Source of the DNA: Halovenus carboxidivorans
GTDB lineage: Archaea; Halobacteriota; Halobacteria; Halobacteriales; Haloarculaceae
Reading direction: 5' to 3'
DNA length: 64,000 nt
Assembly (NCBI RefSeq): GCF_009831575.1
Contig: NZ_WUUT01000002.1
Location: 310,001-374,000, forward strand
In this document: piece after piece, positions 2,577-22,688 of the stretch
How positions within the stretch are numbered: position 1 is the stretch's first letter
Layout: every line of letters begins with the position of its first letter
The notes under the pieces: generated by a model
What the model saw: the letters and a program-made list of their open reading frames with translations, nothing else
What the model was told of the DNA's origin: nothing
Databases searched by the model: none
Position numbers and translations under genes: made by a program

Positions 2577-2608
2577 ACGCTGTCGGGTTCTCTCGGAGGT
2601 TGAACCCA

Positions 2609-4557: not shown

Positions 4558-4591
4558 CGAACAGGAAGCCAGCCCATCGACTGTTCCGATA

Positions 4592-4816: not shown

Positions 4817-4818
4817 AC

Positions 4819-5043: not shown

Positions 5044-5307
5044 TCAAGAATCGATCTTGTCCAGTGCTTCGAGAAGGAGTCGCCCATTCTCCGTGAGCTG
5101 GTAGTGAACTCGTTTCCGGCCCTCGGATTCCCGCTCAGCCACCTCGATCATCCCTTCATCTGCTAATTCGCCAAGTACATCGTAGATGTAGCTCTGGGTA
5201 TATTCGATGTCGTTGTCATCATCGGTGGCGATCTTATATCCCGTGACCGGTTCGTTGTCGTAGATGTATTTGAGCACCTGGATCTTCCGTTCATCGACGA
5301 GTGCCAT
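5044..5307 (-). CDS. Winged-helix (PadR-like / phiH1-repressor-like) regulator
   Basis: Eighty-seven residues that are almost entirely one winged-helix DNA-binding domain: the first helices (DERKIQVLKYIYDNEPVTGYKI), a recognition region (YTQSYIYDVLGELADEGMIEVA) and a wing (RKRVHYQLTENGRLLLEAL). Small stand-alone regulators of this type in haloarchaea resemble PadR and the phage phiH1 repressor. It is transcribed away from the NucS-like nuclease gene across a perfect 12-bp palindrome, so autoregulation and control of the nuclease is the simplest reading. ATG 5307 is preferred over a GTG immediately before it. Confidence 0.85.
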   Translation of the reverse strand: MALVDERKIQVLKYIYDNEPVTGYKIATDDDNDIEYTQSYIYDVLGELADEGMIEVAERESEGRKRVHYQLTENGRLLLEALDKIDS

Positions 5308-5355
5308 CACTCGACTGTAACAGAGGGGTCGGGATAGCCTATGTAAGCAAATTGA

Positions 5356-5367
5356 TAGACCGGTCTA
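5356..5367. promoter_or_regulatory. 12-bp palindrome TAGACCGGTCTA between divergent genes
   Basis: Perfect palindrome about 50 bases upstream of the winged-helix regulator and 38 bases upstream of the nuclease start. A half-site-like TTAGAC follows at 5372-5377. This is where an operator for the adjacent regulator would be expected. The function is inferred. Confidence 0.55.
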
Positions 5368-5404
5368 AAAATTAGACTTGTTCAGTAATTTGATATGGGT
5401 CGCG

Positions 5405-6517: not shown

Positions 6518-6575
6518 GCATATAGACCAGAACACGGGAATTAGCTGGGTGGATGGTAACCACGGTAACTCTCTA

Positions 6576-6624
6576 ACTCACTCACTTTTTAACTTAGAGT
6601 AAGAATTATATACTCAGAGTGAGT
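6576..6624. promoter_or_regulatory. 8-bp inverted repeat bracketing a TATA box
   Basis: ACTCACTC (6576-6583) and its exact reverse complement GAGTGAGT (6617-6624) flank ATTATATA at 6605-6612, about 35 bases before the ATG at 6646. A repressor binding both arms could occlude the promoter of the downstream gene. Confidence 0.5.
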
Positions 6625-6645
6625 ACATGAGTGTGGTGAGAGCTA

Positions 6646-7191
6646 ATGGATGAACTCATCCTCCGCGAAGACGGCGTCCACCTGACCAAGCAGATCGAGG
6701 TAATGGGATCGCCCAAGGAGTTCGAGGAGGAGTTGAGCTACGAGGAACTGAACGAGAACCATGACCTGCGTCTCGACATCGAGAAAATAACCCCTGATAC
6801 AGACGAGAACGGAGAGTTCATCGTTCACATACAGCTAAACTCTGGCGGGACTAAGTCTCGCTCGGGAGCGACCGACACCCCGGATGACCTTCCGGAAGTA
6901 CCGGAGATCCCACTCGACGAGATTCAAGAGAGTCGCCAACCGTTCTACAGTCGTCTGTCGAATCCTGAGCGGCAACCCTATACCACACGTCAAATAATCT
7001 ACGAGGCTGGTGAACTCACGGAACGTGAGCTGAAACAGCGGTTGCACGAGAACGGCCATCCAGGTGTTGAACCGGGTAAGCAGAATGGGAGTGTCGCCTC
7101 AACGCTGGTTGTTCTCGATGAGGTAACAGGCGAAATCGAACGGGAAGGCCGAGGAGAAGATAAGACAATTCGGTGGGTTGGCGAGTCGTAA
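6646..7191 (+). CDS. Hypothetical protein with C-terminal winged-helix-like region
   Basis: A 181-residue protein, less GC-rich in its codons than the neighbours. The N-terminal ~65 residues are charged with a beta-strand end (GEFIVHIQLNSGG). A linker with Ser/Thr/Pro follows (residues 66-95). The C-terminal ~75 residues (YTTRQIIYEAGELTERELKQ, then SVASTLVVLDEVTGEIEREG) suggest a helix-turn-helix with a wing. It precedes the methyltransferase gene by 119 bases in the same direction, so it could regulate or belong to that system. No family assigned. Confidence 0.7.
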   Translation: MDELILREDGVHLTKQIEVMGSPKEFEEELSYEELNENHDLRLDIEKITPDTDENGEFIVHIQLNSGGTKSRSGATDTPDDLPEVPEIPLDEIQESRQPFYSRLSNPERQPYTTRQIIYEAGELTERELKQRLHENGHPGVEPGKQNGSVASTLVVLDEVTGEIEREGRGEDKTIRWVGES

Positions 7192-7310
7192 TCCACCTGC
7201 GAAGGGGCGATTTGTTCCCTCGTTACCGGTAATCGATCCTTAGTACAGATCCCGGAAGCGATGTCGTTCGCCACCAACATATTTGACCCCCCGACTCAAC
7301 GGATTTTTGT

Positions 7311-10300
7311 ATGGCATCTGGATTTCTCTCCTCCCGAAGCGGACGACCCTGGAACTACGATAGGGAGGGGAACGACTACGAATACTACCAAGGAAACGGT
7401 GCGAGTCAACTCGAAATCGCAGTTACTGATCACGGCGAACGACCGACCAAGGAGTTTCTCCAGAAGACCTACTCGGATCGTCGCGGTGGACGCGTCAACC
7501 CGATTCTCGTCGTTGCTATCTACGGAGACAGAGTCGGCCTCTGTGGTCCGAGTGGGGAGGAGCCCCCCGTCTATCGAGATGTAGATCGCGGTCAGGCGGA
7601 GCGCGTTTGTGAAGCCGCACTCGATCAGCCCGACCGGCACGCGGCCCAACAGTTCCTCAGCGAGATGCTTCCACAGCTCGACGAGGAACTCACCGGCCTC
7701 CGCAATCAGGGACTGCTCTCCACGCACGAACTTCGTGTGGGTGTCCCTGAGCGTGACGACTGGGAAGACGCCGCCGAACAAGCGCGGCGTGCCCTCGACG
7801 ACGACCCGCGAGAGCTCATCAAGGGCCTGAACTACGAGATCGATCGGCTCACCGACCAGAGCTACGTCCTGAAAGACACCAGCGACGGACACGAGCGGGC
7901 GGTCGCGGTGTTCCTCCAGGAAGACGAATCGTTCGACCACGCGCAGGATCGCTTCGTCGGTCAGTCGCCGGTGGCCTATGCGCTCAACGAGGCGGACAAA
8001 CGCAACCTCGAATACGTCATCGGGAACAGTGGCGATACACTCCGCCTGTACACGACGAACCCGGACGCTGGCTTCGGCTCGCGCGGACGGACGGACACAT
8101 ACGTTGAGGTGAACACGACACTGCTCGCTGACGAGAAAGCGGCGTACCTCTGGCTGTTGTTCTCTGCGAACGCCCTCCGCGACGACGGGACGCTCCACGA
8201 CATCATGGAGCGGTCGAAGGATTACGCCGCCGATCTTGGGGCGCGGCTCCGCGAGCGCATCTACGACGATGTGATTCCCGACCTCGCGGAAGCCATCGCC
8301 AAAGCACGTGATCTCGACGATCCGACGAAGGACGAACTCGACGAAACCTATCGGATGACGCTGGTTCTCCTCTATCGGCTCCTCTTCATCGCCTACGCCG
8401 AAGACGAGGAGTTCCTTCCACGGCGTCGGAACGCCCGGTACGACGAGAACTCGCTCAAGCGTAAGGCCAAGAACCTCCACGAGTTCATTCAGGACGGCGG
8501 CAAGTTCGACGATTCGTTTTACGACCACTGGGACGACGTGATGCACCTCACGCGGGCGGTTCACCACGGCCACGACGAACTCGGGCTCCCCGCCTACGAC
8601 GGGACACTCCTCTCCGAGGACCCCGACATATCCGACGCCGGAGCAATGTTGGCGGATCTCCGGCTAAACAACGCCGAGTTCGGCCCCGTGCTGTTCCGGC
8701 TTCTCGTAGACGAAACCGAGGACGGCTTCCAGGGACCGGTAGACTTCCGCAACATCGGCGTCCGTGAGTTCGGCGTGATCTATGAGGGACTGCTGGAGTC
8801 GGAGCTGTCCGTTGCCGATCAGCCGCTCACGCTTGACGACGAAGGTCACTACGAACCGGTTGATACTGACGGCCAGCAGACGCTTGGTGACGAAGACGTG
8901 GTCGTCGAAGAGGGCGAGGTCTACCTCCACGGTCAGTCTGGAGAGCGAAAGGCGACCGGCACGTACTACACGAAAACCCGGTTTGTTGAGCACCTGCTGG
9001 ATCACTCACTGGAGCCCGCATTGGAAGACCACATCGACCGAATCGACCGGCTCCGTGAAGAGGAAGGCGAGAACGCCGCCGCAGATGTGTTCTTCGACAT
9101 TCGCGTGTCTGACATCGCCATGGGCTCTGGACACTTCCTCGTGGGTGCTGTTGATCGGATTGAATCTCGACTCTACAAATACCTGACCGAAAACCCGCTA
9201 CCGCCGGTGGAAGAGGAACTCGACAATCTGGAAGACGCCGCACTGGAGGCGTTCGAGGACGAGGAGTATGCGCCCCCTGTCGAGCGCGGTCAGCTTCTCC
9301 GGCGTCAGGTTGCCCGACGGTGTGTCTACGGTGTGGATCTGAACCCTCTTGCCACGGAGCTTGCACGGCTATCGATTTGGGTTCACACTTTTGTTCCGGG
9401 ACTTCCGCTGACGTTCCTCGACTACAACCTCGTGACCGGGGACTCGCTGGCGGGGATTGGGACGCTGGACGAGGTGACCGAAATTCTCGACGTAGAGCAG
9501 TCATCACTGGGAATGTTCGCGGGAGGCCAGAGTGTAATGAATGAGATCCGCGAAGAGATTGAGCAGTTAGGAAGCTTCGCTGATGCCAGTGCCGAACAGG
9601 TCGAAGAGGCCCGAGAGACGCGGGAAGAGATCGAGGAGAAACTGGAAGAGGTTCGAGCGCGCTTCGACGTGTTGGCGGCTTCACGGATCAACGACGAGAT
9701 CGATACTGATCCCGTCTCAGATACCGGTATTGACATCAGAGAAGAGGCGTGTTACGAGCAAGCTCAAGAAGTACTGGAATCGACCGACCCGTTACACTTC
9801 CCCGCCGCATTTCCCGAGGTTTTCGATGGCGACGGCTCGGGGTTCGATGTTCTACTCGGTAATCCTCCTTGGGAGGAAGCTACCTTGGAAGAGGACGAGT
9901 TCTGGATGCGCTACGAGCCTGGGCTTCAAGCGAAACCTCAGTCCGAACAAGAACGTATCAAAGATAGACTCCGTGAAGAACGTCCAGATCTTGTTGAACA
10001 GTACAAGGAAGAACTGGCGGAGCAAGAAAAGCGTCGAGCACTCCTTCGGAACGGTCCATTCCCTGGGATGGGAACTGGCGACCCGGATACCTACAAGGCG
10101 TTCTCTTGGAGATTCTGGGCTCTCACAAAGAACGGAGGTCGTTCAGGGGTTGTGCTCCCAAGGAGTGTATTCAGCGCGGCTGGTTCCGAAGAAATTAGAA
10201 GACGACTCCTTAACAAGAGTGTGGTTAGAGATCTAACATTTCTCGTGAACAATCGAAACTGGGTATTCTCAGCTGTACATCCACAATATACCATCGCACT

Positions 10301-11447
10301 CCTGAGCTTTGAAAAATCAGAACCGGCGGACGACGATGTACTCTCAATACGTGGTCCATTCCCAAGTGCGGAAAGCTTTGATGAAGGTCGGGACCAGCCT
10401 CCGCACACGTTCCCAGTTGAAAGGGCAAAGAACTGGACAGGGACTGCGGCTTTCCCGCTTCTCCCACCAACTCCCGAAGCAGGGGATGTGTTTGGAGTCT
10501 TGACGGAGTCCCCTCCCCTAAACAGAGACGACCCAGACGAGTGGCGTGCAAGACCCAATACAGAACTCCACGCTACAAATGACAAAAAGAAGGATGATGG
10601 TACTGTTCTTATGCACTTTTTCGAGGAGGAAGAGACGCCTCCGGATGGTTACTGGCCAATCTTCAAAGGCGGATCATTTGATATTTGGACGCCTGATACT
10701 GGCGAGCGGTATGCTTGGGCCGACCCAGACATCATGATTGACCACCTACAAGAAAGCAGAGAGAACTCCTATCAGTACGCTGGGAAACGATCTGCTTTCT
10801 ATGAGATGCCCGAAGAGTGGGTTCATGATAAGGACACTCTATCGTGTTTCTACCCGCGGGTTGTGTTTCGGGATGTTACAAGAGCAACGGATAGCCGAAC
10901 GGTGCGGTCGGCACTTGTCCCTCCGGAGATCTTTCTGACAAACAAAGCACCGTACTTCCTGTGGCCCCGGGGAGATGAGAAGGACGAAGCATACCTCCTC
11001 GGGATTCTTTGCTCAATACCCCTTGACTGGTATGCCCGAAGATTTGTAGAAACGACTCTCAATTACCACATCCTCAATGGTTTCCCGATACCACGTCCTG
11101 GCTCTGAGAATCCCCTCCGCCAGCGAGTCATAGAACTGTCAGGCCGTCTTGCCTCAGTAGATGACCGCTACGCGGACTGGGCCGACGCGGTTGGCGTAGA
11201 ACACGGGCCACTTGACGAAGACACGAAGCAGGAGAAGATCTACGAACTGGATGCCGTCGTGGCACACCTCTATGGCCTCTCCCGCGAGCACGTTGAGGTG
11301 ATCTTCGAGACGTTCCACAACGGCTGGGACTACGAAGAACGCCTGAATCGTGTCCTCGACTACTACGCTGACTGGGCTGACCGACTTGATCTCGATCATA
11401 CCGACCGCGAAGAAGAACGCGCGGCGGGAACGCGAGACGATGACTGA
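7311..11447 (+). CDS. Eco57I/PglX-like DNA adenine methyltransferase (large)
   Basis: A 1378-residue protein. The N-terminal ~550 residues are of unknown function and acidic. SAM-binding motif I is VSDIAMGSGHFLVG (near residue 600). The gamma-class N6-adenine catalytic motif is LLGNPPWEEA (near residue 850), followed by a long C-terminal part that should hold target recognition. Size and order resemble Eco57I-type IIG enzymes, BREX PglX and the DISARM methylase. There is no clear PD-(D/E)XK core, so cutting may be done by the partner or a neighbour. Codon use shifts toward AT (AGA, ATA codons) from about 9.9 to 11.1 kb, then returns abruptly, suggesting that the recognition region was exchanged. 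The end overlaps the helicase start by eight bases. Confidence 0.88.
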   Translation: MASGFLSSRSGRPWNYDREGNDYEYYQGNGASQLEIAVTDHGERPTKEFLQKTYSDRRGGRVNPILVVAIYGDRVGLCGPSGEEPPVYRDVDRGQAERVCEAALDQPDRHAAQQFLSEMLPQLDEELTGLRNQGLLSTHELRVGVPERDDWEDAAEQARRALDDDPRELIKGLNYEIDRLTDQSYVLKDTSDGHERAVAVFLQEDESFDHAQDRFVGQSPVAYALNEADKRNLEYVIGNSGDTLRLYTTNPDAGFGSRGRTDTYVEVNTTLLADEKAAYLWLLFSANALRDDGTLHDIMERSKDYAADLGARLRERIYDDVIPDLAEAIAKARDLDDPTKDELDETYRMTLVLLYRLLFIAYAEDEEFLPRRRNARYDENSLKRKAKNLHEFIQDGGKFDDSFYDHWDDVMHLTRAVHHGHDELGLPAYDGTLLSEDPDISDAGAMLADLRLNNAEFGPVLFRLLVDETEDGFQGPVDFRNIGVREFGVIYEGLLESELSVADQPLTLDDEGHYEPVDTDGQQTLGDEDVVVEEGEVYLHGQSGERKATGTYYTKTRFVEHLLDHSLEPALEDHIDRIDRLREEEGENAAADVFFDIRVSDIAMGSGHFLVGAVDRIESRLYKYLTENPLPPVEEELDNLEDAALEAFEDEEYAPPVERGQLLRRQVARRCVYGVDLNPLATELARLSIWVHTFVPGLPLTFLDYNLVTGDSLAGIGTLDEVTEILDVEQSSLGMFAGGQSVMNEIREEIEQLGSFADASAEQVEEARETREEIEEKLEEVRARFDVLAASRINDEIDTDPVSDTGIDIREEACYEQAQEVLESTDPLHFPAAFPEVFDGDGSGFDVLLGNPPWEEATLEEDEFWMRYEPGLQAKPQSEQERIKDRLREERPDLVEQYKEELAEQEKRRALLRNGPFPGMGTGDPDTYKAFSWRFWALTKNGGRSGVVLPRSVFSAAGSEEIRRRLLNKSVVRDLTFLVNNRNWVFSAVHPQYTIALLSFEKSEPADDDVLSIRGPFPSAESFDEGRDQPPHTFPVERAKNWTGTAAFPLLPPTPEAGDVFGVLTESPPLNRDDPDEWRARPNTELHATNDKKKDDGTVLMHFFEEEETPPDGYWPIFKGGSFDIWTPDTGERYAWADPDIMIDHLQESRENSYQYAGKRSAFYEMPEEWVHDKDTLSCFYPRVVFRDVTRATDSRTVRSALVPPEIFLTNKAPYFLWPRGDEKDEAYLLGILCSIPLDWYARRFVETTLNYHILNGFPIPRPGSENPLRQRVIELSGRLASVDDRYADWADAVGVEHGPLDEDTKQEKIYELDAVVAHLYGLSREHVEVIFETFHNGWDYEERLNRVLDYYADWADRLDLDHTDREEERAAGTRDDD

Positions 11448-14400
11448 GCGCCCACAGTTCGTCGATAACCGCAACGGGAACACGCTCGCCCGGGCGATCG
11501 ACGAGTACCTCGACTACCTCGATGGCCGACTCCAAGATCAGCCCGACCTCGACGTGGTGACCGGCTACTTCAACCCGCGTGGGTACTTTTCGATTGCCGA
11601 TGGTCTCGAACACGTCGGTCAGGTTCGTCTTCTAATCGGCGCACAACCCGACCAGGAGGGTATTGAACGCTGGCGACAGCCCGAAGAACCACGCGGCGAG
11701 GCATACGAGCGTAAGCGCATCGACGAGGCTCTCCAATCACTCGATGAGAATCTCGAACGCGACCGCAATCTCTTGGGTTTCTCCCGGGAGGTCGATCAGG
11801 GCCTACAGGAACTCGTTGACTTCTTGCGGAGTGATCGCGTTGAGGTCCGTCGCCACGAGGACAAGTTCGTCCACGGGAAGGCATACCTATTCTCCGACGC
11901 TGAGGGTGTCATCGCTGGCTCCTCGAACTTCACCGGTGCGGGCCTGAACTCGAACCTCGAACTGAACCTTGGCACCTATGACCCGCACGTCACTGACCGC
12001 GTCCACGAGTGGTTCGAGGAACTGTGGGCCGCCAGTGAACCGTACGATCTCGCCGCACTCTACGAACAGCGGTTTGAGCCCTATCGCCCGTACCTGATCT
12101 ACCTCCGCGTGCTCTGGGAACGCTACGGCGAGGAACTGGCCGAAGAAGAGGACGAAGACGGCGGGATCAACCTCGTGAACTTCCAGGAGGACGCCGTCAG
12201 GCGAGCCAACCGCTTCCTCAAGCGACACGGTGGCGTCATCATCGCAGACGAGGTTGGCCTCGGGAAGACCTACATTGCCGGTGAACTGCTCCACCAGTAC
12301 GTCCAGGAGAACCGCCAGCGTGCGCTCGTGATTTCGCCCGCCTACCTCCGAGACGGTATGTGGGAACAGAAGGGACCGGAGTGGGGCATCCAGTTCGAGA
12401 CGGTCTCGTACGCCGAACTTCGAAATGAGAGCCAACTCGGTGGCGACCGGAACGTGCTTGATCTGGACGTGGACGAGTACCAGCTCGTCGTCATCGACGA
12501 GGCTCACGCCTTCCGTAACCCTGGCACACAACAGTCCCACGCGCTCCGTACCCTCCTCCGTGGCGATCCCCCGAAGGATGTGGTCATGCTCACGGCTACG
12601 CCGGTCAACAACTCGCTGTGGGACCTGTACTACCTGCTGAATTATTTCATCCGCAACGACGCCGCCTTCGCCAACGAGGGTATCCGGTCGCTCCGTGAGC
12701 GATTCAAAACGGCCCAGTCCGAAGACCCGTCGGATCTCAGCCCCGACATGCTGTTCGACGTGCTGGACGAGACGACTGTCCGCCGGACACGCCGGTTTAT
12801 CAAAAACCACTACGAGGACGCGATGATGCCCGACGGCGAAGGCGGGTCTGTCCGCATCAACTTCCCCGACCCGAACCCCCAGCGCGTCGATTACACGTTC
12901 TCGGGCACGCTCGGTGACGACTACTTCCGCGATGTCGCACGCGGGCTGGCCGCTGGAGAACGCGAGGAGGCGGAGCTCACACTTGCCCGCTATCGGCCCT
13001 CGTATTACCTCGAAGGCGAAGAGGACGCGTCAGAACTCTCGCTGGTGGGTCTCCTCCGAACAGGCCTGCTCAAGCGGTTCGAGTCCTCCAGTCATGCCTT
13101 CGCTAACACACTCGACCGGATGATCCGACAAAATCGTGCCGCACTCCGGCTGATGGATCAAGGGTACTTCCCCGACCCTGACGCCATTGATGAGTGGGTC
13201 GAGATGGACAGCGACGAGGCGATGGATGAAGCACTCGGAGAAGCCGCCGATGGTCGGGTTCCACTGTCAGCCGCCGATCTCGATCCAATACGCCTCCAAG
13301 ACGACTTGGAGAACGACATCGAGATACTCGAACGCTGGCGGGACGGCGCACGGAGTGTGAGCCGCGAGGACGACCAGAAGCTCCATGCCCTCCGTGAGAC
13401 TCTCTCCGAGGTCGTTGAGCGAGCGCGGGATGATGCTGAGGCACGTGAACTCGAAGACGAGGACGTTGAGGCGGCGTTCCGACGCAACCGGAAGGTGCTG
13501 TTGTTCTCCTACTACGAGGATACCGTGGACTGGATCTACGAATATCTCCAGGAAGTCGTAGCGGAGGACGATGAACTGTCGTGCTACGAGGGTCGTATCG
13601 CGGCGGTTGTTGGTGATGGTGCGAAATACGGTGTGAGCCGCGAGGATGCTGTTCATGGATTCGCGCCGAACTCCGGGGACGCGCCACCGGACGCCACCGA
13701 TGAGTACGACATCCTGATCGCTACGGACGTGCTTGGCCAGGGTGTCAATCTCCAGGAAGCACGGACAGTCATCAATTATGACCTACCCTGGAATCCGATG
13801 CGCGTTGTCCAGCGCAACGGACGGATCGACCGCGTGAACTCGCCGCACTCTGAGATCTATCCGATCACGTTCTTCCCCGAAGACCGCCTCGACGACTTGC
13901 TGGAACTCGAACACCGAGTGCGACAGAAGCTCACCCAGGCCGCCCGCTCGATTGGCGTCAGCGGTGGCGTAATCCCCGACATGGAGACGCTGAACCAGAA
14001 CTTCGCAGAGAAGGTCGAGGACATTGGCTCGATCCAAGAAGGCGACACGGGCTTCTACGAAGAGGGCGGTCGGACGGCCGCCGCATACTCCGGTGAGGAA
14101 TACCGTCAAGAACTTCGGAAGGGGCTGGAGACGCGCGAAGAACAGATCACCGGTCTTCCGTGGGCGGCGGGCTCAGGATTCCGTGGTGACAGCCCCGGCT
14201 ATTTCTTCTGTGCGCGGATCGGCGACGAGGTGTTCATGCGGTTCCTCCCGGAGGACATGGACGACGAGGAGGACGTTGTCCAGGATACGCTCACCTGTCT
14301 CAAGCGGATCGAGTGTACAGAAGAAACCGAGCGTGTCCTTCCCGACGCGATGCGCGACGAGATCTATAGCGCGTGGGAAACAGCACGTGAGGACATCTAC

Positions 14401-14802
14401 CGACAATGGCAAGAGCAAACCGACCCGCTGAACGTCCAGCCGGACATCCGGAAGCTGTTCCGCGAGGTCGGCCAGCACCTACGCGAGCACTGGCCCGACG
14501 ACATGACCCAGGACAAGCTTCAGGAAACGGTCGAGGCTGTCGAGGCTCCGTGGGGACGCCGGTACGAACGGGAACTCCGCGAGATCTACGAGGATGAGTC
14601 CTTCGGCCCAGTCGAGAAATCCCGCCAGCTTGTCGAGAAGGTCGATGATCTGGGACTCCAGCCGTTCGAGGCTCCTGACCCACTCCCGCCTATTGAGGAG
14701 GACGAAGTGAAGCTGATCTGCTGGATGGTTGTGGCACCAGAAGAAGACGAAGAGGACGAGGATCGCCCACAACTGCTGTCGCAAGTGACGCTCAACACAT
14801 AG
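11440..14802 (+). CDS. PLD-nuclease/SNF2-like helicase fusion, anti-phage type
   Basis: A 1120-residue protein. Residues ~140-165 carry a phospholipase-D HKD motif (HGKAYLFSD, then GSSNFTG), a nuclease/phosphodiesterase signature. A superfamily-2 helicase follows: Walker A in ADEVGLGKTYIAGE (~264), DEAH box VVIDEAHAF (~352), motif III TATPVNNS, and C-terminal motifs DVLGQGVNLQ and VQRNGRIDRVNS (~790). The last ~280 residues are acidic and unassigned. In class 1 DISARM a SNF2 helicase (DrmD) partners a methylase and a separate PLD protein (DrmC); here helicase and PLD are fused and DUF1998-type partners are absent. It probably translocates on and cuts unmodified invading DNA. ATG 11440 lies inside the end of the methylase gene. 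Confidence 0.88.
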   Translation: MTERPQFVDNRNGNTLARAIDEYLDYLDGRLQDQPDLDVVTGYFNPRGYFSIADGLEHVGQVRLLIGAQPDQEGIERWRQPEEPRGEAYERKRIDEALQSLDENLERDRNLLGFSREVDQGLQELVDFLRSDRVEVRRHEDKFVHGKAYLFSDAEGVIAGSSNFTGAGLNSNLELNLGTYDPHVTDRVHEWFEELWAASEPYDLAALYEQRFEPYRPYLIYLRVLWERYGEELAEEEDEDGGINLVNFQEDAVRRANRFLKRHGGVIIADEVGLGKTYIAGELLHQYVQENRQRALVISPAYLRDGMWEQKGPEWGIQFETVSYAELRNESQLGGDRNVLDLDVDEYQLVVIDEAHAFRNPGTQQSHALRTLLRGDPPKDVVMLTATPVNNSLWDLYYLLNYFIRNDAAFANEGIRSLRERFKTAQSEDPSDLSPDMLFDVLDETTVRRTRRFIKNHYEDAMMPDGEGGSVRINFPDPNPQRVDYTFSGTLGDDYFRDVARGLAAGEREEAELTLARYRPSYYLEGEEDASELSLVGLLRTGLLKRFESSSHAFANTLDRMIRQNRAALRLMDQGYFPDPDAIDEWVEMDSDEAMDEALGEAADGRVPLSAADLDPIRLQDDLENDIEILERWRDGARSVSREDDQKLHALRETLSEVVERARDDAEARELEDEDVEAAFRRNRKVLLFSYYEDTVDWIYEYLQEVVAEDDELSCYEGRIAAVVGDGAKYGVSREDAVHGFAPNSGDAPPDATDEYDILIATDVLGQGVNLQEARTVINYDLPWNPMRVVQRNGRIDRVNSPHSEIYPITFFPEDRLDDLLELEHRVRQKLTQAARSIGVSGGVIPDMETLNQNFAEKVEDIGSIQEGDTGFYEEGGRTAAAYSGEEYRQELRKGLETREEQITGLPWAAGSGFRGDSPGYFFCARIGDEVFMRFLPEDMDDEEDVVQDTLTCLKRIECTEETERVLPDAMRDEIYSAWETAREDIYRQWQEQTDPLNVQPDIRKLFREVGQHLREHWPDDMTQDKLQETVEAVEAPWGRRYERELREIYEDESFGPVEKSRQLVEKVDDLGLQPFEAPDPLPPIEEDEVKLICWMVVAPEEDEEDEDRPQLLSQVTLNT

Positions 14803-15137
14803 CCATCTTTGTCTATTGAGGATTGAACTGGTGTGCCTGTTGAATAACTCCGTGAGCGAAGCTTCGAGGTGAATTTTAGATTGACCGCGCCAACCTGCTG
14901 TCAGAAACGCAGGACTGAGAGGGGTTGCATCAGTACGGATTCTGGCATACCGAGAGCCGGGGTAACCGTCTCTGACAGCAGGGTGCGTTCGATTCTGATT
15001 CTAATACCGTCTCTCAGGCCCCTCAAACTGATTAATTCGGCGGGATAGTCATTTCCCTATTACACTATGCAGAGCAGAAAGCCATTCTCGCAGAAATAAA
15101 TGGTTTCAGACGTTGATACGGCTATTCTCGGAATATA
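14803..15137. other. Intergenic region between helicase and inverted cassette
   Basis: About 335 bases without a plausible gene, lying between the 3' ends of two convergent transcription units. It holds the first inverted-repeat pair (14888-14986). No other signal stands out apart from AT-rich runs. Confidence 0.55.
14888..14986. repeat. MITE-like inverted-repeat pair, copy 1 (~100 bp)
   Basis: The left arm contains CCTGCTGTCAG at 14894-14904, preceded by GACCGC. The right arm contains its reverse complement CTGACAGCAGG at 14972-14982, extended by GTGC. The arms point at each other with about 67 bases between. The same arrangement recurs at 17909-18081, on the other side of the four-gene cassette. 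No target-site duplication was recognised. Confidence 0.6.
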
Positions 15138-15848
15138 TTACGGTGAACTCGTCTCCTCAACGGCCGCTTCGAGGCGGTCGAGATACGCTGAGTCGTACTG
15201 TTCCTCGACGTGATTGACGTTCCATAGTCCGGACTGACGGATCTCCTCACATGGACTTTCGTTCCCTAACCATTCATCGTCTCGACTATCGATTAATTCC
15301 TTCGAGTAGTTGCTGACAAGAGCAATCGTGTTCCGCTCAAGATACGCACGATCACTCTCAGGCCCGGGCTCGTCGTCAACGCTGATCCACAGAAACGGTA
15401 GATCCCGAATGTAGTCGCTCACTTGTCGTTCCAGTTCGAGTTCGGCGAGCCTCCGTTCACGCCCCGCGCTGGAGCCTTCGCCCCAGTTCGGATATTCGTT
15501 GTGGATGTCGTGACGTTCGATCATCGCCTCTCCGACACGCTTTCGGAATACTGACCCACGATGGTTGCCCCCTCCCTCGTAAGTCCCACTCTTCGCGCCG
15601 CGATGGGTCCGGAGTCGATTCCAGAGAGATGTACCTGATCCAGAGGAGACAGCGTGTGTTCCAACGCGTGTGAGCCGAAGCTGATCGGTTGATTCTCGTG
15701 TCTCGTCCGCGGCGAAAAAGAAGTAGACACCGCGATCCGGCCAGTCCATGTGGCCAGTACATTCCCGCAAGCGTTGCATCCCACCGACTCTCTCTTCGAG
15801 AATCTCGAACAGATCGTAAAGTCGATCCATATCGTCTTGTCGTGACAT
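15138..15848 (-). CDS. GIY-YIG-like nuclease-fold protein
   Basis: About 236 residues, fourth and last gene of the minus-strand operon. GVYFFFAADE (near residue 45), RLTRVGTHAV and SLWNRLRTHRG read like a GIY-YIG core: a strand ending in GVYFFF, a second strand with RVG in place of YIG, then the Arg-containing helix. GGNHRGSVFRKRVGEAM extends the pattern. Many restriction and repair nucleases use this fold. The catalytic Glu cannot be placed with confidence, and the canonical GIY and YIG triplets are degenerate. The C-terminal third (WISVDDEPGPESDRAYLERN) is also seen in GIY-YIG-like proteins. ATG 15848 was chosen; an in-frame ATG lies 27 bases upstream. Confidence 0.62.
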   Translation of the reverse strand: MSRQDDMDRLYDLFEILEERVGGMQRLRECTGHMDWPDRGVYFFFAADETRESTDQLRLTRVGTHAVSSGSGTSLWNRLRTHRGAKSGTYEGGGNHRGSVFRKRVGEAMIERHDIHNEYPNWGEGSSAGRERRLAELELERQVSDYIRDLPFLWISVDDEPGPESDRAYLERNTIALVSNYSKELIDSRDDEWLGNESPCEEIRQSGLWNVNHVEEQYDSAYLDRLEAAVEETSSP

Positions 15849-15890
15849 TATCCGTCCTTCGATCAGGTGGTACAAAATATTCGGCTTCGA

Positions 15891-16331
15891 TTAGAGTTGC
15901 TCGTTGTACCACGCGAGCGTTTCACCGTATTGGAGTCCATCTGTGGGGATCTCGATCTCAACAGGTGTGTTATCCAACAGCGGCCGAAGCTTGTCGTGAT
16001 AATCTCGTCCGGCGTGGAACATCAGTCGATTTCCCTGGGTGAGGAGGCCTTCGTCTTGAAGCTGGTCATAGACTATCTGCGCCCACTGACGTTTCCGATC
16101 GACTGATGCACCGCTTAGAGTCTCGTCGTACGGTTCGATGGGCGGCCCGTACGGATCAAGAAGGTAGTGTTTCGCGGAGAGGATGTACCAGTCGTCGTGA
16201 TTGGCTTCAGCGTACTCACGCGCTTTCCGGAAAAACGCCGATTCCATATACAGGTCCGCTGGCTGGGTAGCCTGCTTACGTTTGCTCTTGGTACAACTCA
16301 CGAGTCCGATTTCAACATCGGATTGAGTCAT
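15891..16331 (-). CDS. DUF6884 / YaaA-like protein
   Basis: A 146-residue protein. It opens with IGLVSCTKSKRKQ, the Cys-x-Lys-Ser-Lys signature shared by the DUF6884 and YaaA-like families, followed by DLYMESAFFRKAREYAE, a strand WYILSAKHYLLDP and IEPYDETLSG. YaaA binds DNA and limits oxidative damage; some relatives are fused or linked to base-modification genes. Its job here is unknown. The start ATG 16331 is supported by GAGGT eight bases upstream; an earlier ATG (16361) overlaps the stop of the membrane gene, so coupling is likely either way. The next gene, GIY-YIG-like, follows after 42 bases. Confidence 0.72.
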   Translation of the reverse strand: MTQSDVEIGLVSCTKSKRKQATQPADLYMESAFFRKAREYAEANHDDWYILSAKHYLLDPYGPPIEPYDETLSGASVDRKRQWAQIVYDQLQDEGLLTQGNRLMFHAGRDYHDKLRPLLDNTPVEIEIPTDGLQYGETLAWYNEQL

Positions 16332-16353
16332 CGCACTTGACCTCTTCCCAGCG

Positions 16354-16875
16354 TTATTCATTCGCTCGAATCGCTTTATTGAGCAAGACAAATATTTGAA
16401 GACACCTCCAGAGCCGTAGAATCACGAAAACGAAAGCAAAGATCGCAGTGAAGGCGAACACAGTCTGGACTTGCCGCTGAAACAGTGTATGGATCTCAAA
16501 GACTGTGATGCTAAACGTGTAAATCCAGACTACACCGATACTGGCGATTGAAAGCGTGAAGATCGAGAGAACATCATCGAACTTCCCGATCCGTTTTAAT
16601 TCCTTGATAGCGCGGTTATCGTCCCGAAAAGCAAATGCGTAGATGATCGCCAACACAGGGAAGAGTAGACCGAGGATGGTGGTAATCGTCCGATTGATCG
16701 CATCTATATTTTCTAATGCTACCAGAGGTGTGCCCGCGTAGAACAGCAACAAAAGCCCAGCTACAGAAAGGACGACGGAGTAGACGACATCCCTCGTGAG
16801 GTCGCTAACTGGGCCTGAGCCCATAAAATCCCTCTCCGTTAGAGTACGGGGAGTTAACTTATGAAGTTTAGTCAT
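16354..16875 (-). CDS. Four-helix membrane protein of the cassette operon
   Basis: A 173-residue protein with four clear membrane segments, near residues 29-48 (VVYSVVLSVAGLLLLFYAG), 64-84 (TILGLLFPVLAIIYAFAF), 103-125 and 135-160. A basic loop between TM2 and TM3 (DDNRAIKELKRIGKFDD) and a charged tail face the cytoplasm in the most likely topology. It begins four bases after the upstream partner's stop, so the two are almost certainly co-translated. A small tetraspan membrane protein next to a ~300-residue cytosolic partner recalls Kiwa (KwaA/KwaB) and other membrane-effector defence pairs. This is an analogy of layout; sequence kinship has not been shown. Confidence 0.75.
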   Translation of the reverse strand: MTKLHKLTPRTLTERDFMGSGPVSDLTRDVVYSVVLSVAGLLLLFYAGTPLVALENIDAINRTITTILGLLFPVLAIIYAFAFRDDNRAIKELKRIGKFDDVLSIFTLSIASIGVVWIYTFSITVFEIHTLFQRQVQTVFAFTAIFAFVFVILRLWRCLQIFVLLNKAIRANE

Positions 16876-16879
16876 GGTG

Positions 16880-17770
16880 TCAGATTCGATCACACAGTTC
16901 CTCACCAAGGCGTGGATCAAAGATCCCGTATCCACTCGTGTCGATCTCCTCCTTTTTGACGATGTCGGCGAGGTTATCTTCGACTTCTTCCTCGTCGGAC
17001 TCTATGCCTTCAATACGGAAAGTGTGCATGATTCTGGGGAAGTCGATTTGAGAAATCGACTCCTCAGCACTATCCGCGTTCACTCCCAGAAGCGAACTGA
17101 ATCTGGTTATGAACTCATCTACGGGAGTGCTGTCAGCATCTTTGTCTTGGTGTAGACTGGCAACGAACTCCAGCCGATAACTGTCGTCTATCAAGGTTCG
17201 AATCGCGTCGTCAGGGTCCAGTTCAGCGTAGGACTGAGGATTCTTTTTGAAACTGATCTCGACCTTTTTCAGGTGACTATCCAGTAACCGTTCCATCTTC
17301 TCGTCATCGAGGTCACGGATGTCGGTCTCATGTTTGAGTTCGTATTCTTCATCGAACTCGACATGGTCATCCAGATACTGCTTTAGCACCCCGATCCCAG
17401 GGGTCTGAAACCCAACTTCGATCAGCAGATCGATCCCCGTAGTCCCGAAGTCTATCGCAAAATCAACATAGTCGTAGTCTATATCACCAGCTTCTCCACT
17501 GTCTTCTGTAGCGTCTGAAAGTCGCCCAAGACGGCCATCCGACGAGAGTCTCACGAAGTCATCTTCGTCTTTTGTTCTGATAAGAACCCCGTGGTACTGA
17601 CCGTTGGTAATTTCTTGAAACTGCGAATGGTAGTTCCTTTCACCAGCGTTCGATATTCTGTATAGATCCTCAGCAAGCACTTCGTCACTGAGGACATCAG
17701 ATGGATCGAGCCTTCGACCGTCATCCCCTTCGATCCAGAGATTGTAGTGATAGAACTTTGTGAGACTCAT
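16880..17770 (-). CDS. Hypothetical ~296-residue cytosolic partner protein
   Basis: First gene of the minus-strand operon. Opens with FYHYNLWIEGDDGRRLDPSD and continues with a beta-rich half (YHGVLIRTKDEDDFVRLSSD, YVDFAIDFGTTGIDLLIEVG). A helical, charged half follows (LKKVEISFKKNPQSYAELDP, DDAIRTLIDDSYRLEFVASL). No membrane segment, no nuclease or ATPase motif seen. Layout (N-terminal sensor-like sheet, C-terminal helices, membrane partner) would suit a sensor that controls the tetraspan protein, but this is inference. ATG 17770 follows GAGGAG by nine bases. Lower GC than the core genes. Confidence 0.72.
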   Translation of the reverse strand: MSLTKFYHYNLWIEGDDGRRLDPSDVLSDEVLAEDLYRISNAGERNYHSQFQEITNGQYHGVLIRTKDEDDFVRLSSDGRLGRLSDATEDSGEAGDIDYDYVDFAIDFGTTGIDLLIEVGFQTPGIGVLKQYLDDHVEFDEEYELKHETDIRDLDDEKMERLLDSHLKKVEISFKKNPQSYAELDPDDAIRTLIDDSYRLEFVASLHQDKDADSTPVDEFITRFSSLLGVNADSAEESISQIDFPRIMHTFRIEGIESDEEEVEDNLADIVKKEEIDTSGYGIFDPRLGEELCDRI

Positions 17771-17829
17771 AACCAAGTACTCCTCAATCGGATACTGTAA
17801 AGCTTTCTGTCATAAAATCCCAACCAGTA

Positions 17830-17850
17830 ACAAATAGAATATTTATTTGT
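17830..17850. promoter_or_regulatory. Inverted repeat ACAAATA-n7-TATTTGT upstream of the operon
   Basis: A perfect 7-bp inverted repeat with a 7-base spacer, centred about 70 bases upstream of the ATG at 17770 on the minus strand. Its AT richness and position suit an operator or promoter element for the four-gene operon. Function inferred. Confidence 0.5.
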
Positions 17851-17908
17851 TCGTACAAGCGTTGTCAGGTGAAGCTAACTGGGTCGAATAGATTTGTCCG
17901 AGAAGACC

Positions 17909-18081
17909 GCACCCTGCTGTCAGGAACGTCCGCCCGGACACGATTTTCATCTTAATCCCCGGCTCAGCAAACCGGCAACCGTTCGTTAAAACACCCGTTA
18001 TTAAGATTCCTAATAACACCCGTTTGAATGAATGAGTCGTTATCTTGTGATTCTCCGCAGACGGCCCTGACAGCAGGGCGC
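17909..18081. repeat. MITE-like inverted-repeat pair, copy 2 (~173 bp)
   Basis: The left arm GCACCCTGCTGTCAGG (17909-17924) and the right arm CCTGACAGCAGGGCGC (18066-18081) are a 16-bp inverted repeat with one mismatch. Same core as the pair at 14888-14986 and the solo copy at 2393-2408. Together the pairs bracket the four-gene cassette. Confidence 0.65.
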
Positions 18082-18135
18082 GATTTTTTCACACTGGCCC
18101 GCACGATTTTGTTCCCGCCGCTCGATAGTCGAAGT

Positions 18136-19134
18136 ATGGCTTTCAGCGTCTCCTGGCACACGCTCTTGGACGAACTCGACGATCTCTCCGAGGAGGCCAC
18201 GCTGATCACGCCACTCTCGCACGACCGATTCCGAGTGACAGACGTACAGGAGCAACGTGTTGTCATCGAGTTTCTCGACCGCGACATCGACGAGACGCGC
18301 CCGCTTCAGCGCAACCAGTTCGAGACGCTGTACCGGCGCATCACCGACGAGCTGGACGGGTTAGAACTCGACAGACTTCCACCCGACGCCGACCCGTAAC
18401 CGGCGGTGTTGAGTCTTCACCCACGGTTCGAAATCGACGAAGATCGAGGCGTGATCATTGAGAAGGAAGGTCCGACCACGAGCCAGCTACTCGATTCCGG
18501 CGATGAATCCGAAGCGAGCGAGGAAGAACGTACTGAGCCTGATCTGGATGTCTATGCCGACGCTCTCCTGCTCGTAGACGCACTCGAACGCCACGGAGTG
18601 GAAGTCCTCGAAGAGATGGAGACGGACGCGCTGGTGAACCTCTACACGCTTCTCTCGGACGTACAACGGAACGCCAACGACCTCCGTCAGGATGTCGCTG
18701 ACGTGCTTCTCAACCGGCTTCACCACGACCGTCCGGTGAATGGACCGTTCGGCTCCGTCCAGCGGACCACGCGGCGCAATCGGTCGCTGAAAGACGACGA
18801 GGAAGTTCTGGAGACGCTCGAAGAGGCTGGGATCGACCGCGAGCGCGTGCTGGGTGTGGACCGCGGCAAGGTTGACGACGCCCTCGAAGTCACGGAGCTG
18901 TCCGAGAGCGACGTGTACCAGGTCGAGGAGTCCGAGTACGTCCGCAAGGCCGAGGTGGACGAGGAGCGTAAGGAAACACGGCTCCAGGGGCTCAAAGATC
19001 AACTCGCGGCCGCTGAAGGTGACGAAGCCGAGGAGTTACGCGAGGAGATCGAGGAACTCGAAGATCGTATCGAGGAACTCACGGAGTTCAAGTCCGGGTC
19101 ACAGTTCCACACTCGGGCGGGAAGTGAACCATAG
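18136..19134 (+). pseudogene. Hypothetical protein gene split by in-frame TAA
   Basis: An 87-codon reading frame from ATG 18136 stops at TAA (18397-18399). The same frame then continues without interruption to 19134, from codons after the stop (PAVLSLHPRFEIDEDRGVII) onward. The halves would make one protein of about 332 residues. A GTG at 18406 could restart translation. The first half begins FSVSWHTLLDELDDLSEEAT. The second half ends in a long charged coiled coil (LQGLKDQLAAAEGDEAEELR onward). No family recognised. It lies behind the defence core and before a nuclease gene. A point mutation, a sequencing error or genuine two-gene organisation are all possible. Confidence 0.62.
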
Positions 19135-19184
19135 ACCTGGTCTTGTCGAAACCGTTGTGACCGGTGAGATTGAACTTGTGTGTA

Positions 19185-19703
19185 ATGCCGGTCACGGTGG
19201 AAGTACCGCCCCGGTACGCTCGTCGTGCCCGTCAGTTAGCCGAAGAGCGAAATCAGTCGTTTGAGGACAACGAAGCATGGGACAACAACGCAGACTCGTG
19301 GGGTGTCGAGCCTGTCGAGCGGAACTACCGAGGTCTGATGGGTGAATTTGCCTTCGCAGAATACGCTGATCTTTCGATTGACACGTCGATAAATCGCTGG
19401 ACTGATGGCGGACAGGATTTCGAGATTGAGCTTCGTGGACAGCCAGCAACCGTTGACGTGAAAGTCGCAAACAAGGAACCCAAGGCCCTCATGGTGAAGG
19501 AATACGCTGTGAACGCTGACTACTATGTGTTGGGGCATCTCGAAGAGAATGAGGTGATGTTCTATGGTGGGGCATGGGCTGAGCAAGTGACTGACGGAGT
19601 CAAGAAGGAATCACCGTTTGGTCATACGAACTACACGATTGGAGTGGACTATCTGGAGGAAATACCGACTCCTGATGAGATCGAGGAGATGAACCCTACG
19701 TAG
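19185..19703 (+). CDS. PD-(D/E)XK nuclease-like protein
   Basis: About 172 residues from ATG 19185. NYRGLMGEFAFAEY (helix with Glu, near residue 48), GGQDFEIELRG (catalytic Asp, near residue 81) and ATVDVKVAN (D-x-K, near residue 90) match the PD-(D/E)XK core with Val in the middle of the last triplet. YYVLGHLEENEVMFYGGAW resembles the later strands of this fold. Such small proteins occur in phages, plasmids and defence islands. It may supply cutting activity to the upstream system, but the 1-nuclease-per-locus logic is not needed since the helicase has its own PLD domain. An upstream GTG (19164) is less likely. Confidence 0.7.
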   Translation: MPVTVEVPPRYARRARQLAEERNQSFEDNEAWDNNADSWGVEPVERNYRGLMGEFAFAEYADLSIDTSINRWTDGGQDFEIELRGQPATVDVKVANKEPKALMVKEYAVNADYYVLGHLEENEVMFYGGAWAEQVTDGVKKESPFGHTNYTIGVDYLEEIPTPDEIEEMNPT

Positions 19704-19872
19704 TCACGACTTACGTTGTGGACGTAGGTTTTCGGACTAACACCGGAGTTGTACCGTGGTCTCCACTGTCGCTGTGACGTAGGTAATTTTTTAAATCTTG
19801 CCCCCAATTTGCACCCTGTCGAGGAGGAAAACGGCCTCTCAGGGCGTCTATAGTCCGTTTCCCGAGGGCAAG

Positions 19873-19923
19873 CTTAGGACGCTGTCCCGTAGGGGTCCGC
19901 CGGTTCAAATCCGGTCCCGCGCA
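19873..19923 (+). other. 3' half of tRNA-Leu (TAG anticodon): putative attachment site
   Basis: The stretch starts CTTAGGA (anticodon loop with TAG), continues CGCTGTCCCG, has a leucine-type long variable arm and the T-arm CCGGTTCAAATCCGG, and ends TCCCGCGC plus discriminator A. CCA is not encoded, as usual in archaea. The upstream bases do not supply the 5' anticodon stem, D-arm or a GCGCGGG acceptor strand, so the tRNA is truncated exactly at the anticodon loop. That is a common crossover point for archaeal tyrosine integrases, so this looks like the right att site of an element lying to the left. The intact tRNA and integrase would be off-window. Confidence 0.75.
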
Positions 19924-19993
19924 TGAGCGAACGAAGTGAGCGAAGAGCAGGCACGGATTTGAACCCTGGAAACCGAGCGAAGCGAGGTTTCAT

Positions 19994-20017
19994 CCGGTTC
20001 AAATCCGGTCCCGCGTA
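19994..20017 (+). repeat. Second copy of tRNA T-arm/acceptor tail
   Basis: CCGGTTCAAATCCGGTCCCG followed by CGTA repeats the tRNA tail almost exactly, 94 bases after the first. An inverted, degenerate T-arm (CGGATTTGAACCCTGG) lies between them at 19954-19969. It suggests tandem remnants of past integrations or slippage. Confidence 0.65.
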
Positions 20018-20113
20018 CTGACCGAGTTTTCGAGCGACGCGAGAAAACGACGGAAGGAGTAGGACCGATTTGAACTCTGGAAGTCGCGCGCAGCGAAGCG
20101 AGCACGTCTTTCT

Positions 20114-20137
20114 CCGGTTCACATCCGGTCCCACACA
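20114..20137 (+). repeat. Third, decayed copy of tRNA T-arm/acceptor tail
   Basis: CCGGTTCACATCCGGTCCCA followed by CACA is a further copy with several changes, 120 bases after the second. It too has an inverted T-arm-like piece before it (CCGATTTGAACTCTGG, around 20064). The decay gradient suggests it is the oldest copy. Confidence 0.6.
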
Positions 20138-20323
20138 CACTCTGTCCAAACGGTAGCGAAGACGAGTAGTGTACCGAGCGAAGATTGCGAACCGGGACGA
20201 CTTCGATACGGAAGCCGCCTCAGTCCTCGTCGGAGAGACGCCTGTGCAAGTAGACGCCCGCTGTCGTGGCGGCCGAGACCCGAAACCGCAAGAAGTGTCA
20301 CACCCGAGCGCGAACTCCGCTCA

Positions 20324-21049
20324 ATGAGTCGTCGGGAGGATTTCATCGCCGGTGTACGGACGACGACGCCGGTAATGTTGGGAGTGATCCCGTTCGGACT
20401 GGTCGCCGGTGCGGCCGCCGTCGGGGCGGGGCTGTCGTTGCTGCAGGCAATCGCGCTGTCTGTCGTGGTGTTCGCCGGAGCCTCACAGCTCGCGATGATC
20501 GAGCTGCTGGGACAGGACGCGACGCTGCTGGTAGTCGTCGGGACGGCGCTGATAATCAACTCGCGGCTGGTGATGTACTCGGCATCGCTCGCGCCGCATT
20601 TCACCTCGGAGAGCCGCCGCTGGCGCGGGCTGATGGCGTATATCATGACCGACCAGGCCTTCGCGCTCTCGGTCACCCGGTACGCCGAGGGGATGGACGA
20701 TGTCACTCGCCGGCGGTGGTACTATCTCGGGACCGCCGCTCCGCTGTGGGTCGTCTGGCAGATCTGTACGGTCGTCGGCGTCGCCGTGGGAGCGAGCGTG
20801 CCCGGCTGGCTACCGCTGCGGTTCGCGGTTCCGCTGACCTTCCTGGCGCTGCTCGTGCCGGCCGTGCAGACGCGGGCGCACGCGACGGCGGCCGTCGTCG
20901 GCGGTGGCGTCGCGACCGCCGGCGCGACGATTCCCTACAATCTCGGGCTGGTACTCGGTGCTCTGCTGGGCGTCGCCGCCGGGACGTTGGTCGCGCGAAC
21001 TGCGTCGGAACCCGCAGGGGGCGTCGGGCCGGAGGAGGTGGGTGAATGA
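20324..21049 (+). CDS. azlC: AzlC family branched-chain amino-acid exporter subunit
   Basis: A 241-residue protein with about six to seven membrane segments. FIAGVRTTTPVMLGVIPFGL, the AzlC signature FAGASQLAMIELLG and NSRLVMYSASLAPH are all present. AzlC is the large subunit of a two-component exporter of branched-chain amino acids and analogues (LIV-E class) in the cytoplasmic membrane. The next gene, azlD, overlaps it by ATGA. This is the first core gene beyond the island boundary. Confidence 0.92.
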   Translation: MSRREDFIAGVRTTTPVMLGVIPFGLVAGAAAVGAGLSLLQAIALSVVVFAGASQLAMIELLGQDATLLVVVGTALIINSRLVMYSASLAPHFTSESRRWRGLMAYIMTDQAFALSVTRYAEGMDDVTRRRWYYLGTAAPLWVVWQICTVVGVAVGASVPGWLPLRFAVPLTFLALLVPAVQTRAHATAAVVGGGVATAGATIPYNLGLVLGALLGVAAGTLVARTASEPAGGVGPEEVGE

Positions 21050-21440: not shown

Positions 21441-22688
21441 TCACTCTCGAACGATCAGCGAGAGCGCCAGCGCCAGCGCGATACCCTCGAATCCGGCGAG
21501 CAGGACGAACACCGCCGTCGTGGAGGCGTAGGTCAACACCGTGCCGACGATAGAGGCGCCGAGCGCACCGATACCGAAAATCGCCAGGTAGGTGTATCCG
21601 AACGACAGTCCGCGGCGCTCCGGCGGGGAGTACTTCGCAATCGTCGCCTGGCTGAGCGGCTGCATCGCGAAGAGGACGAACCCTAACGCGACACTCACTA
21701 GCAACAGCGTCGGCAGCGTCCCAGCGGCCGGGACGAACAGCAGCGCGATGACGCCGAGCAAGCCGAGCATCAGCGCCAGGCCCCGCTCGACGCTGACGGT
21801 ATCGGTCAGGCGACCACCGACGTACTGGCCGCCGATTCCGACGGCCAGCAGTCCGGCGTAGAGATACTGCGCGAGGTCAAACTCCCGGGCGAGTCGGCCG
21901 TCGGGGATCGGTCCGATCCCTTCCTCCGGCGCGATGTCGACCAGCGGTTCGAGGAACTCACCCAACATTTCGGGGAGGAAGGTGAGCATTCCGCGATAGT
22001 ACAGCCCGTTGAACAGCACGAGCGCGAACACCGTCGCGAAGCCGACGGTGAACAGCCCCCGAGACGCAGAGACGAACTCTCGGAAGGAGTCGATATCTGC
22101 GGTGTGTCGGCCTCCGTCAGTCGCAGCGACGGCCGCCGTCTCGTCGAACTCGACGGTCAACCCTGCGAGGGCCGCCAGCAACGCGGGCACCGCGAGGATG
22201 ACCGCGGCCATCCGCCAGTCGACTGCAACGAGTAGTATGGCGGTGACGAACGGACCTGCGGCGATTCCGATGTTGCCCGCCATGCCGTGGTACGCGAACG
22301 CCGAGCCGCGCTGATCGACGGCCTTGCTGATCAGCGAGAGTCCGGCGGGGTGATAGACGCTCGCTGAGAGCCCCCAGAGTCCGAGAGCCAGCGTGATGCC
22401 GACGATTCCGGGGGCGATGCTCAACAGCAGGAAGGACAGGCCCATGCCAACGAGACAGGCGACGATGAGCCGCCGGGAACCGAAGCGGTCGACGAGCAGA
22501 CCGCCCGGCAGTGCTCCGACCCCGAACAGCCCGTAGCCGACGGCGACGACCGTCCCGAGCGTCGCCGAGTTCGCCGCGAACTCGACTAACCAGACGGTCA
22601 TCATGATCGGCACCGACAGCTCGTAGGTGTGGACCATCGCGTGCCCGGCCATCGTGAAGCCCGTGATCTTGCGGTCGTTCGCGTTCAT
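21441..22688 (-). CDS. MFS transporter
   Basis: A 415-residue protein with about twelve membrane segments and the motif-A-like loop GGLLVDRFGSRRLI between TM2 and TM3. Other marks: SLISKAVDQRGSAFAYHGMA (central TM4-5 region) and SQATIAKYSPPERRGLSFGY in the second half. This is a proton-driven or facilitative transporter of the major facilitator superfamily. YHPAGLSLISK and the sub-type resemble fosmidomycin-resistance-like or nitrate-like families, but the substrate cannot be read. A 9-bp inverted repeat lies ~95 bases upstream of its start. Confidence 0.9.
   Translation of the reverse strand: MNANDRKITGFTMAGHAMVHTYELSVPIMMTVWLVEFAANSATLGTVVAVGYGLFGVGALPGGLLVDRFGSRRLIVACLVGMGLSFLLLSIAPGIVGITLALGLWGLSASVYHPAGLSLISKAVDQRGSAFAYHGMAGNIGIAAGPFVTAILLVAVDWRMAAVILAVPALLAALAGLTVEFDETAAVAATDGGRHTADIDSFREFVSASRGLFTVGFATVFALVLFNGLYYRGMLTFLPEMLGEFLEPLVDIAPEEGIGPIPDGRLAREFDLAQYLYAGLLAVGIGGQYVGGRLTDTVSVERGLALMLGLLGVIALLFVPAAGTLPTLLLVSVALGFVLFAMQPLSQATIAKYSPPERRGLSFGYTYLAIFGIGALGASIVGTVLTYASTTAVFVLLAGFEGIALALALSLIVRE

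Follow-up and report, generated by a model that had tools for sequence, protein, structure and literature searches.

A virus-like island at tRNA-Leu(UAG) of Halovenus carboxidivorans and the tRNA-tail hairpin array beyond its right end

The DNA analysed here, called the window, is a stretch of 64,000 nucleotides (C2:310001-374000) from the 3.25-Mb genome of Halovenus carboxidivorans, which was searched as ten contigs. Its left part belongs to a genomic island whose remainder, with the integrase gene, lies to the left of the window (Table 1). G+C content is about 55% in the island part of the window and about 62-68% (about 64%) in the right flank, with a step at about 20 kb. The cargo is overall of the restriction and defence type: three genes match candidate defence families, and there are proteins that match virus families. 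The position given for the HKD-SNF2 gene uses the most upstream start of its open frame, at which it runs into the gene before it; translation probably begins further downstream. A homologue of the histidine kinase (62% identical in parts) adjoins tRNA-Leu in the related genome G019.

Table 1. Features of the island and its surroundings (window positions unless prefixed C2)
Feature	Position	Strand	Remarks
Intact tRNA-Leu(UAG) gene	C2:301709-301794		anticodon by ARAGORN
Tyrosine integrase ORF, 388 aa	C2:301850-303016		starts 55 bp behind tRNA-Leu(UAG)
Island, right 19.9 kb	1-19871		remainder and integrase left of window, C2:301743-310000
Large sensor histidine kinase, inside island	1-2098 (gene C2:308214-312098)	-	
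NucS-like nuclease domain, PADLOC candidate PDC-S11	5378-6517	+	
Type IIG restriction-methyltransferase	7311-11447	+	E = 1.6e-270
HKD (phospholipase D-like) and SNF2 helicase	11350-14802	+	C3a139, E = 7e-53
PADLOC candidate PDC-M57B match	15138-15875	-	
PADLOC candidate PDC-M57A/DUF6884 match	15891-16391	-	
Member of virus family phrog_35116	18406-19134	+	E = 1.9e-124
Candidate integrase arm site inside right end	19824-19849	-	imperfect inverted copy of about C2:301811-301836
attR: tRNA-Leu(UAG) 3' half	19872-19923	+	52/52 identical to C2:301742-301793
CTTAGGA, anticodon loop, putative 7-bp overlap (crossover) region	19873-19879	+	cut itself presumed
Unit 1, host side	19924-20017	+	spacer with GAACGAAGTGA, inverted tail 19947-19965, inner hairpin with GAGCGAAGCGA, tail 19994-20017
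Unit 2, host side, more decayed	20018-20137	+	spacer hairpin GTTTTC..GAAAAC, inverted tail about 20062-20080, inner hairpin, tail 20114-20137
AzlC-like gene, first core gene right of island	20324-21049	+	name from sequence alone
Core MFS-type transporter	21441-22688	-	name from sequence alone

The sequence at the right end of the island repeats the 3' half of tRNA-Leu(UAG). The two att copies are separated by 28,130 bp, the intact gene forming the left copy on the same contig and strand. This tRNA is apparently single, with one gene of that anticodon among the tRNA genes found in the genome; the other Leu tRNAs match the right-hand copy less well, and no intact tRNA was found within the 64-kb window. 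For a perfect 52-bp repeat within about 3.2 Mb, chance is excluded. A first-pass annotation of this DNA had described a tRNA-Leu 3' half followed by two tail copies spaced by 94 and 120 bases, and had proposed that a tRNA-Leu(UAG) with a matching 3' end and an integrase be sought to the left of the window. We recovered the three fragments (19872-19923, 19994-20017, and 20114-20137), and both the tRNA, exact over 52 bases, and the integrase are where they were expected.

Tail fragments are common behind haloarchaeal tRNAs, so the 3' half might be an unrelated dispersed fragment and no island end at all; we regard this as hardly credible, given that the 52 identical bases include the anticodon loop, that the matching tRNA, on the contig and strand of the fragment, has an integrase beside it, that there is a step in composition, and that a virus attP of like build exists. 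A terminal direct repeat with one copy completing a tRNA, an adjacent integrase, and foreign composition are all found here, as in genomic islands generally, and it is well supported that a 28-kb virus-like island of an ordinary and known kind ends at attR. The prophages and prophage remnants of Haloquadratum, as described in the available part of the source (PMC3119063), likewise lie between a tRNA and a partial copy of one, with an integrase at one end and lower G+C; they differ in using another tRNA, and that part of the source reports no hairpin array.

Identity of the two att copies ends one base 5' of CTTAGGA, and from this we infer that crossover, and hence the cut, took place at the anticodon loop. 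The earlier observation that the copy begins at this loop was correct and fits a crossover there. The cuts made by IntSSV1 also flank the anticodon loop (PMC8371274). As in the island, the att of SSV1-type elements occupies a tRNA 3' part, and the anticodon loop marks where the shared stretch ends on its 5' side. Just within both island ends there is an imperfect inverted repeat, AGACGCCCT..GGCC.GTTTTC (score 36, shuffle P = 0.010), placed as integrase arm sites would be; it is modest evidence for candidate sites of this kind. The same test gave P values of about 0.03-0.04 for HSTV-2, the genome G001, and a Natrinema plasmid, and was not significant for a Halomicrobium plasmid.

The integrase open reading frame is intact and matches Phage_integrase (PF00589, E = 2.9e-18), the only domain detected. 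It retains R237, K265, Y338xxR341, H363, and Y372, all invariant in six relatives, and the enzyme may still be active today. Unlike the suicidal integrases of the SSV type, its gene remains whole outside att and is not split by integration, and it carries YxxR, not KxxR. An int gene intact after integration and the series R..YxxR..Y are features of the classical pNOB8 type, and by gene layout and residues the integrase would be expected to work as that type does.

A tblastn search with the integrase found the viruses HSTV-2, HRTV-11, HRTV-2, and HCTV-6, all about 56% identical along its full length (388 aa). A review of archaeal tyrosine recombinases (Badel et al. 2021) defines an HSTV2 family that is restricted to Halobacteria, has PF00589 alone, and includes HSTV-2, HRTV-11, and HCTV-6, with membership set at ≥30% identity to members over 60% of the protein (PMC8371274). 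At 56% over 388 aa, the level of identity places the island integrase in this family, as judged from the protein sequence. The likeness extends to the position of a tRNA 3' part directly before int: HSTV-2 and HCTV-6 have a tRNA-Leu(GAG)-like 3' part (free attP) there, which differs from the island att by six mismatches in 51 nt and by one in the last 24 nt. The viruses thus carry the tRNA-Leu(GAG) version, whereas the island carries tRNA-Leu(UAG). A plasmid of Halomicrobium urmianum has a tRNA-Leu(UAG) 3' half with two mismatches in 51 before a related int and looks like an unintegrated form of the island arrangement.

Among 80 loci with related integrases in public genomes, at 67 the integrase starts no more than 500 bp past an intact tRNA, which is tRNA-Leu(UAG) in 18 cases; tRNA-Glu and tRNA-Leu(UAG) are the commonest targets. 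Nearly all 80 are labelled Halobacteria, and one contig is labelled Pacearchaeota. The closest integrase (81%) comes from Halobiforma haloterrestris, where int follows tRNA-Leu(UAG) at a distance of 56 bp. By eye, a motif like CNGTCNTGCGATTC recurs between tRNA and int at four loci (L179, L180, L195, and L232) and possibly marks arm-type binding sites of HSTV2-family integrases.

We compared the right flank with related genomes, none of the same species. In G013, G015, and G019, a single tRNA-Leu lies close to homologues of the right-flank genes: the AzlC-like protein in G019 (82% identical), and the MFS-type transporter in the same-genus G013 (77%) and in G015 (50%). The left flank or the tRNA was present in the relatives searched, and the sequence between the tRNA and the right-flank genes varies among them. 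The nearness of right-flank homologues to tRNA-Leu indicates that the left and right flanks were probably once neighbours, the island having come between them.

The two tail copies beyond attR have a structure that the first-pass annotation overlooked: each is preceded by an inverted copy of the tRNA tail (about 19947-19965 and 20062-20080), which is the key to them. Each "decayed tail copy" pairs with its inverted tail into a long hairpin, to which the inverted tail contributes the 5' arm and the tail copy the 3' arm. The resulting units, of about 65-130 bp, have four parts in order: a short spacer that often forms its own hairpin (loop GAAC..GTGA), the tRNA tail in inverted form, an inner hairpin, and the tail proper. 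They hold no genes; a 91-aa open frame runs across the array on the minus strand (window 19874-20149). Over 53 tail copies, the best upstream inverted match has a mean of 2.8 mismatches in 12, against 5.1 in shuffles. The window array has a predicted folding energy of -81.5 kcal/mol (z = -3.1), and one unit at tRNA-Ser and one at tRNA-Met give z scores of -2.5 and -6.9, respectively. When the arms are left out of the folding, the inner stems of 52 units from the palindrome survey described below pair despite differing sequence (mean z = -1.35; 30 units below -1). An Rfam scan of the window and the array gave no match at E values up to 10. The loop motif GARCGNAGYGA was considered as the carrier of the array and dropped, as it is weakly enriched genome-wide (110 versus 59 for the reversed motif) and occurs beyond tRNAs too.

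In this genome, a tail copy lies within 500 bp downstream of 12 of the 43 tRNAs and upstream of none. The count used 24-mers and is a lower bound, because some of these were shifted by one base (the ARAGORN end) and because tRNA-Leu(UAG), whose array has moved, was left out. As a control, the tails of other tRNAs were found downstream in only 48 of 1722 cases (2.8%); the arms match their own tRNA. Among 93 tRNAs of the named genomes, a close tail copy lies downstream of 11 and upstream of none. The palindrome GATTYGAA-N15-45-TTCRAATC was surveyed with perfect arms; totals added up manually give 144 sites, at most 24 in one genome, spread over 23 of the 24 Halobacteriales genomes sampled, and nine sites in eight of 124 other Halobacteriota. 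The reversed palindrome is present in three of these 148 genomes, all three outside the Halobacteriales set. An intron-containing tRNA-Met (L116, C2:448458-448562) is followed by four units in the downstream 400 bp, the first two identical over 105 bp, a recent duplication. Units with GGGTTCAAATCCCGGCGAG-type tails occur at L018 (C4:10210-10472, minus strand) and at C1:231049-231100; ARAGORN finds no tRNA in the C4 stretch, and these are either orphan arrays or arrays whose tRNA lies just outside.

The units are repeated imperfect palindromes in intergenic DNA, as REP/BIME elements are. They share with these, and with the PATEs and SMRs of Haloquadratum as far as the available part of their description goes (PMC3119063), a short, non-coding, hairpin-forming, and clustered nature and a number of several to many per genome. 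They differ in being located behind tRNA genes and in having arms that reproduce the neighbouring tRNA's tail. REP/BIME elements are further marked by a RAYT/Y1 transposase and a conserved tetranucleotide foot. Integron attC sites, which go with an IntI-type integrase, are folded palindromic sites between cassettes; the tail-hairpin units hold no genes. A search of open-licence papers found no description of tRNA-tail repeats in haloarchaea, which, within that literature, is weak evidence. Judged by sequence, the units appear to be a tRNA-linked palindromic repeat of Halobacteria that matches no family or paper searched.

Most relatives without the island have one to three similarly built units directly behind tRNA-Leu (among others at L024-L028, L030, L031, L036, L039, L042, L045, L047, L126, L129, and L131); at four island-free loci (L043, L046, L134, and L138) no units were found behind the tRNA. 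Where a second att copy can be read, units lie outside it in this window, in G001, G020, and G025, and in Halomicrococcus (L157), Halolamina (L167), and Halorussus (L189), and no intact unit follows the second att copy at L158, L159, L203, and L210. Since units occur both in island-free relatives and outside the readable second att copies, the array belongs to the host side and predates the island, and insertion pushed it 28 kb away. Of the first-pass reading of this region as the right end of an island, the boundary at the anticodon loop and attR (19873-19923) therefore stands, while the tail copies to 20137 fall on the host side.

Some of these loci have further features. In G001 (L122:10104 onwards), a decayed integrase start, similar in DNA to the island's integrase, lies behind the array and would be the remnant of an older, like element at the same tRNA. 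G020 (L123 and L124) has an integrase behind tRNA-Leu(UAG) at C1:126569 and the matching 3' half with the array at 2777012 on the other strand, a layout pointing to an inversion with one breakpoint within the island. At L194, L197, and L232, second att copies are followed by sequence like an integrase arm, and these are probably tandem elements at one tRNA-Glu.

Such successive or tandem islands at one tRNA (the G001 remnant and the second copies at L194 and L197), and the fact that the tail copies are direct repeats of the end of the att site, would fit a reading of the tail copies as scars, each a truncated attR left by an earlier, lost element at this tRNA. We find this very improbable. Most units share the inverted tail and the inner hairpin, and loss of an element would leave no inverted copies; the window copies stop at the T arm, short of the anticodon loop, unlike real attR copies; and each genome has units behind many different tRNAs.

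In a minority of loci (L162, L179, L195, L232, G022, and G010), one unit lies between the tRNA and the integrase or element arm, and the array is therefore not always strictly outside the element. In G010 the unit precedes a decayed integrase start, and in Natronomonas sp. LN261 (L232) the unit on the tRNA side recurs after the second att copy, 4.9 kb on. A past tail-to-tail recombination that placed a unit into attP, whether by the integrase or by homologous recombination, would explain L232. The units could also be landing pads or decoys for tRNA-targeting integrases, an element then recombining at a tail copy and not at the tRNA itself: at these six loci the element arm starts directly behind the unit tail, and a unit at both element ends, as at L232, is expected from a tail-to-tail event into attP. 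We think this unlikely, however, as by inspection 63 of the 67 loci with an integrase near a tRNA have no unit between the two, and arrays usually lie outside attR. Moreover, the tails lack the anticodon-loop region common to elements and tRNA, and homologous recombination between 24-bp tails explains the exceptions equally.

A role in the tRNA transcript, for example as terminator, processing, or regulatory hairpins, is a rather doubtful alternative. The stable predicted RNA folds (z = -6.9 and -3.1), the inner stems kept while their sequence changes, and the fact that units follow the tRNA immediately and share its orientation would all agree with it. On the other hand, about 70% of the genome's tRNAs have no units, and an Rfam match is absent. 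Islands also separate the array from its tRNA, and elements with no unit behind the tRNA are common; the unit is therefore dispensable at those tRNAs.

We hold with high confidence that the locus consists of an integrative element in tRNA-Leu(UAG) and a displaced, pre-existing host hairpin array; both att copies, the intact integrase, synteny, and the array in island-free relatives support this directly. In the proposed history, an integrative element, with an integrase shared with tailed haloviruses of the HSTV-2 type, entered tRNA-Leu(UAG), adding 28,130 bp. The integrase recombined the tRNA 3' half borne by attP with the host gene, most likely through a 7-bp crossover at CTTAGGA. This rebuilt an intact tRNA at the left junction and orphaned the host's 3' half at 19872-19923, and the two-unit array, originally directly behind the tRNA, was displaced by 28 kb.

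As for what the array itself does, we give close to an even chance to a palindromic repeat of REP-like, tRNA-linked kind, which would multiply and be kept matched to its tRNA by tail-to-tail recombination. More tentatively, it may represent a lineage-wide family of tandem hairpins behind haloarchaeal tRNAs, with arms copying the neighbouring tail and with tails that serve as extra recombination sites for elements gaining or losing units.

The island is a clean case of a virus-type integrase and defence-type cargo at a tRNA gene, and it supplies exact att sites for an integrase family absent from the review's list of shown activity (PMC8371274). The end of such an island is known in kind; the array is the unexpected part and matters more, being a structured, tRNA-matched repeat behind about a quarter of the genome's tRNA genes that spans an archaeal order and hardly occurs in the sister classes. 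Arrays of this kind are easily mistaken for integration scars, as happened in the first-pass annotation, or for short coding genes, and frames across them may enter haloarchaeal annotations as spurious small proteins. Their role at integration hot spots is directly testable.
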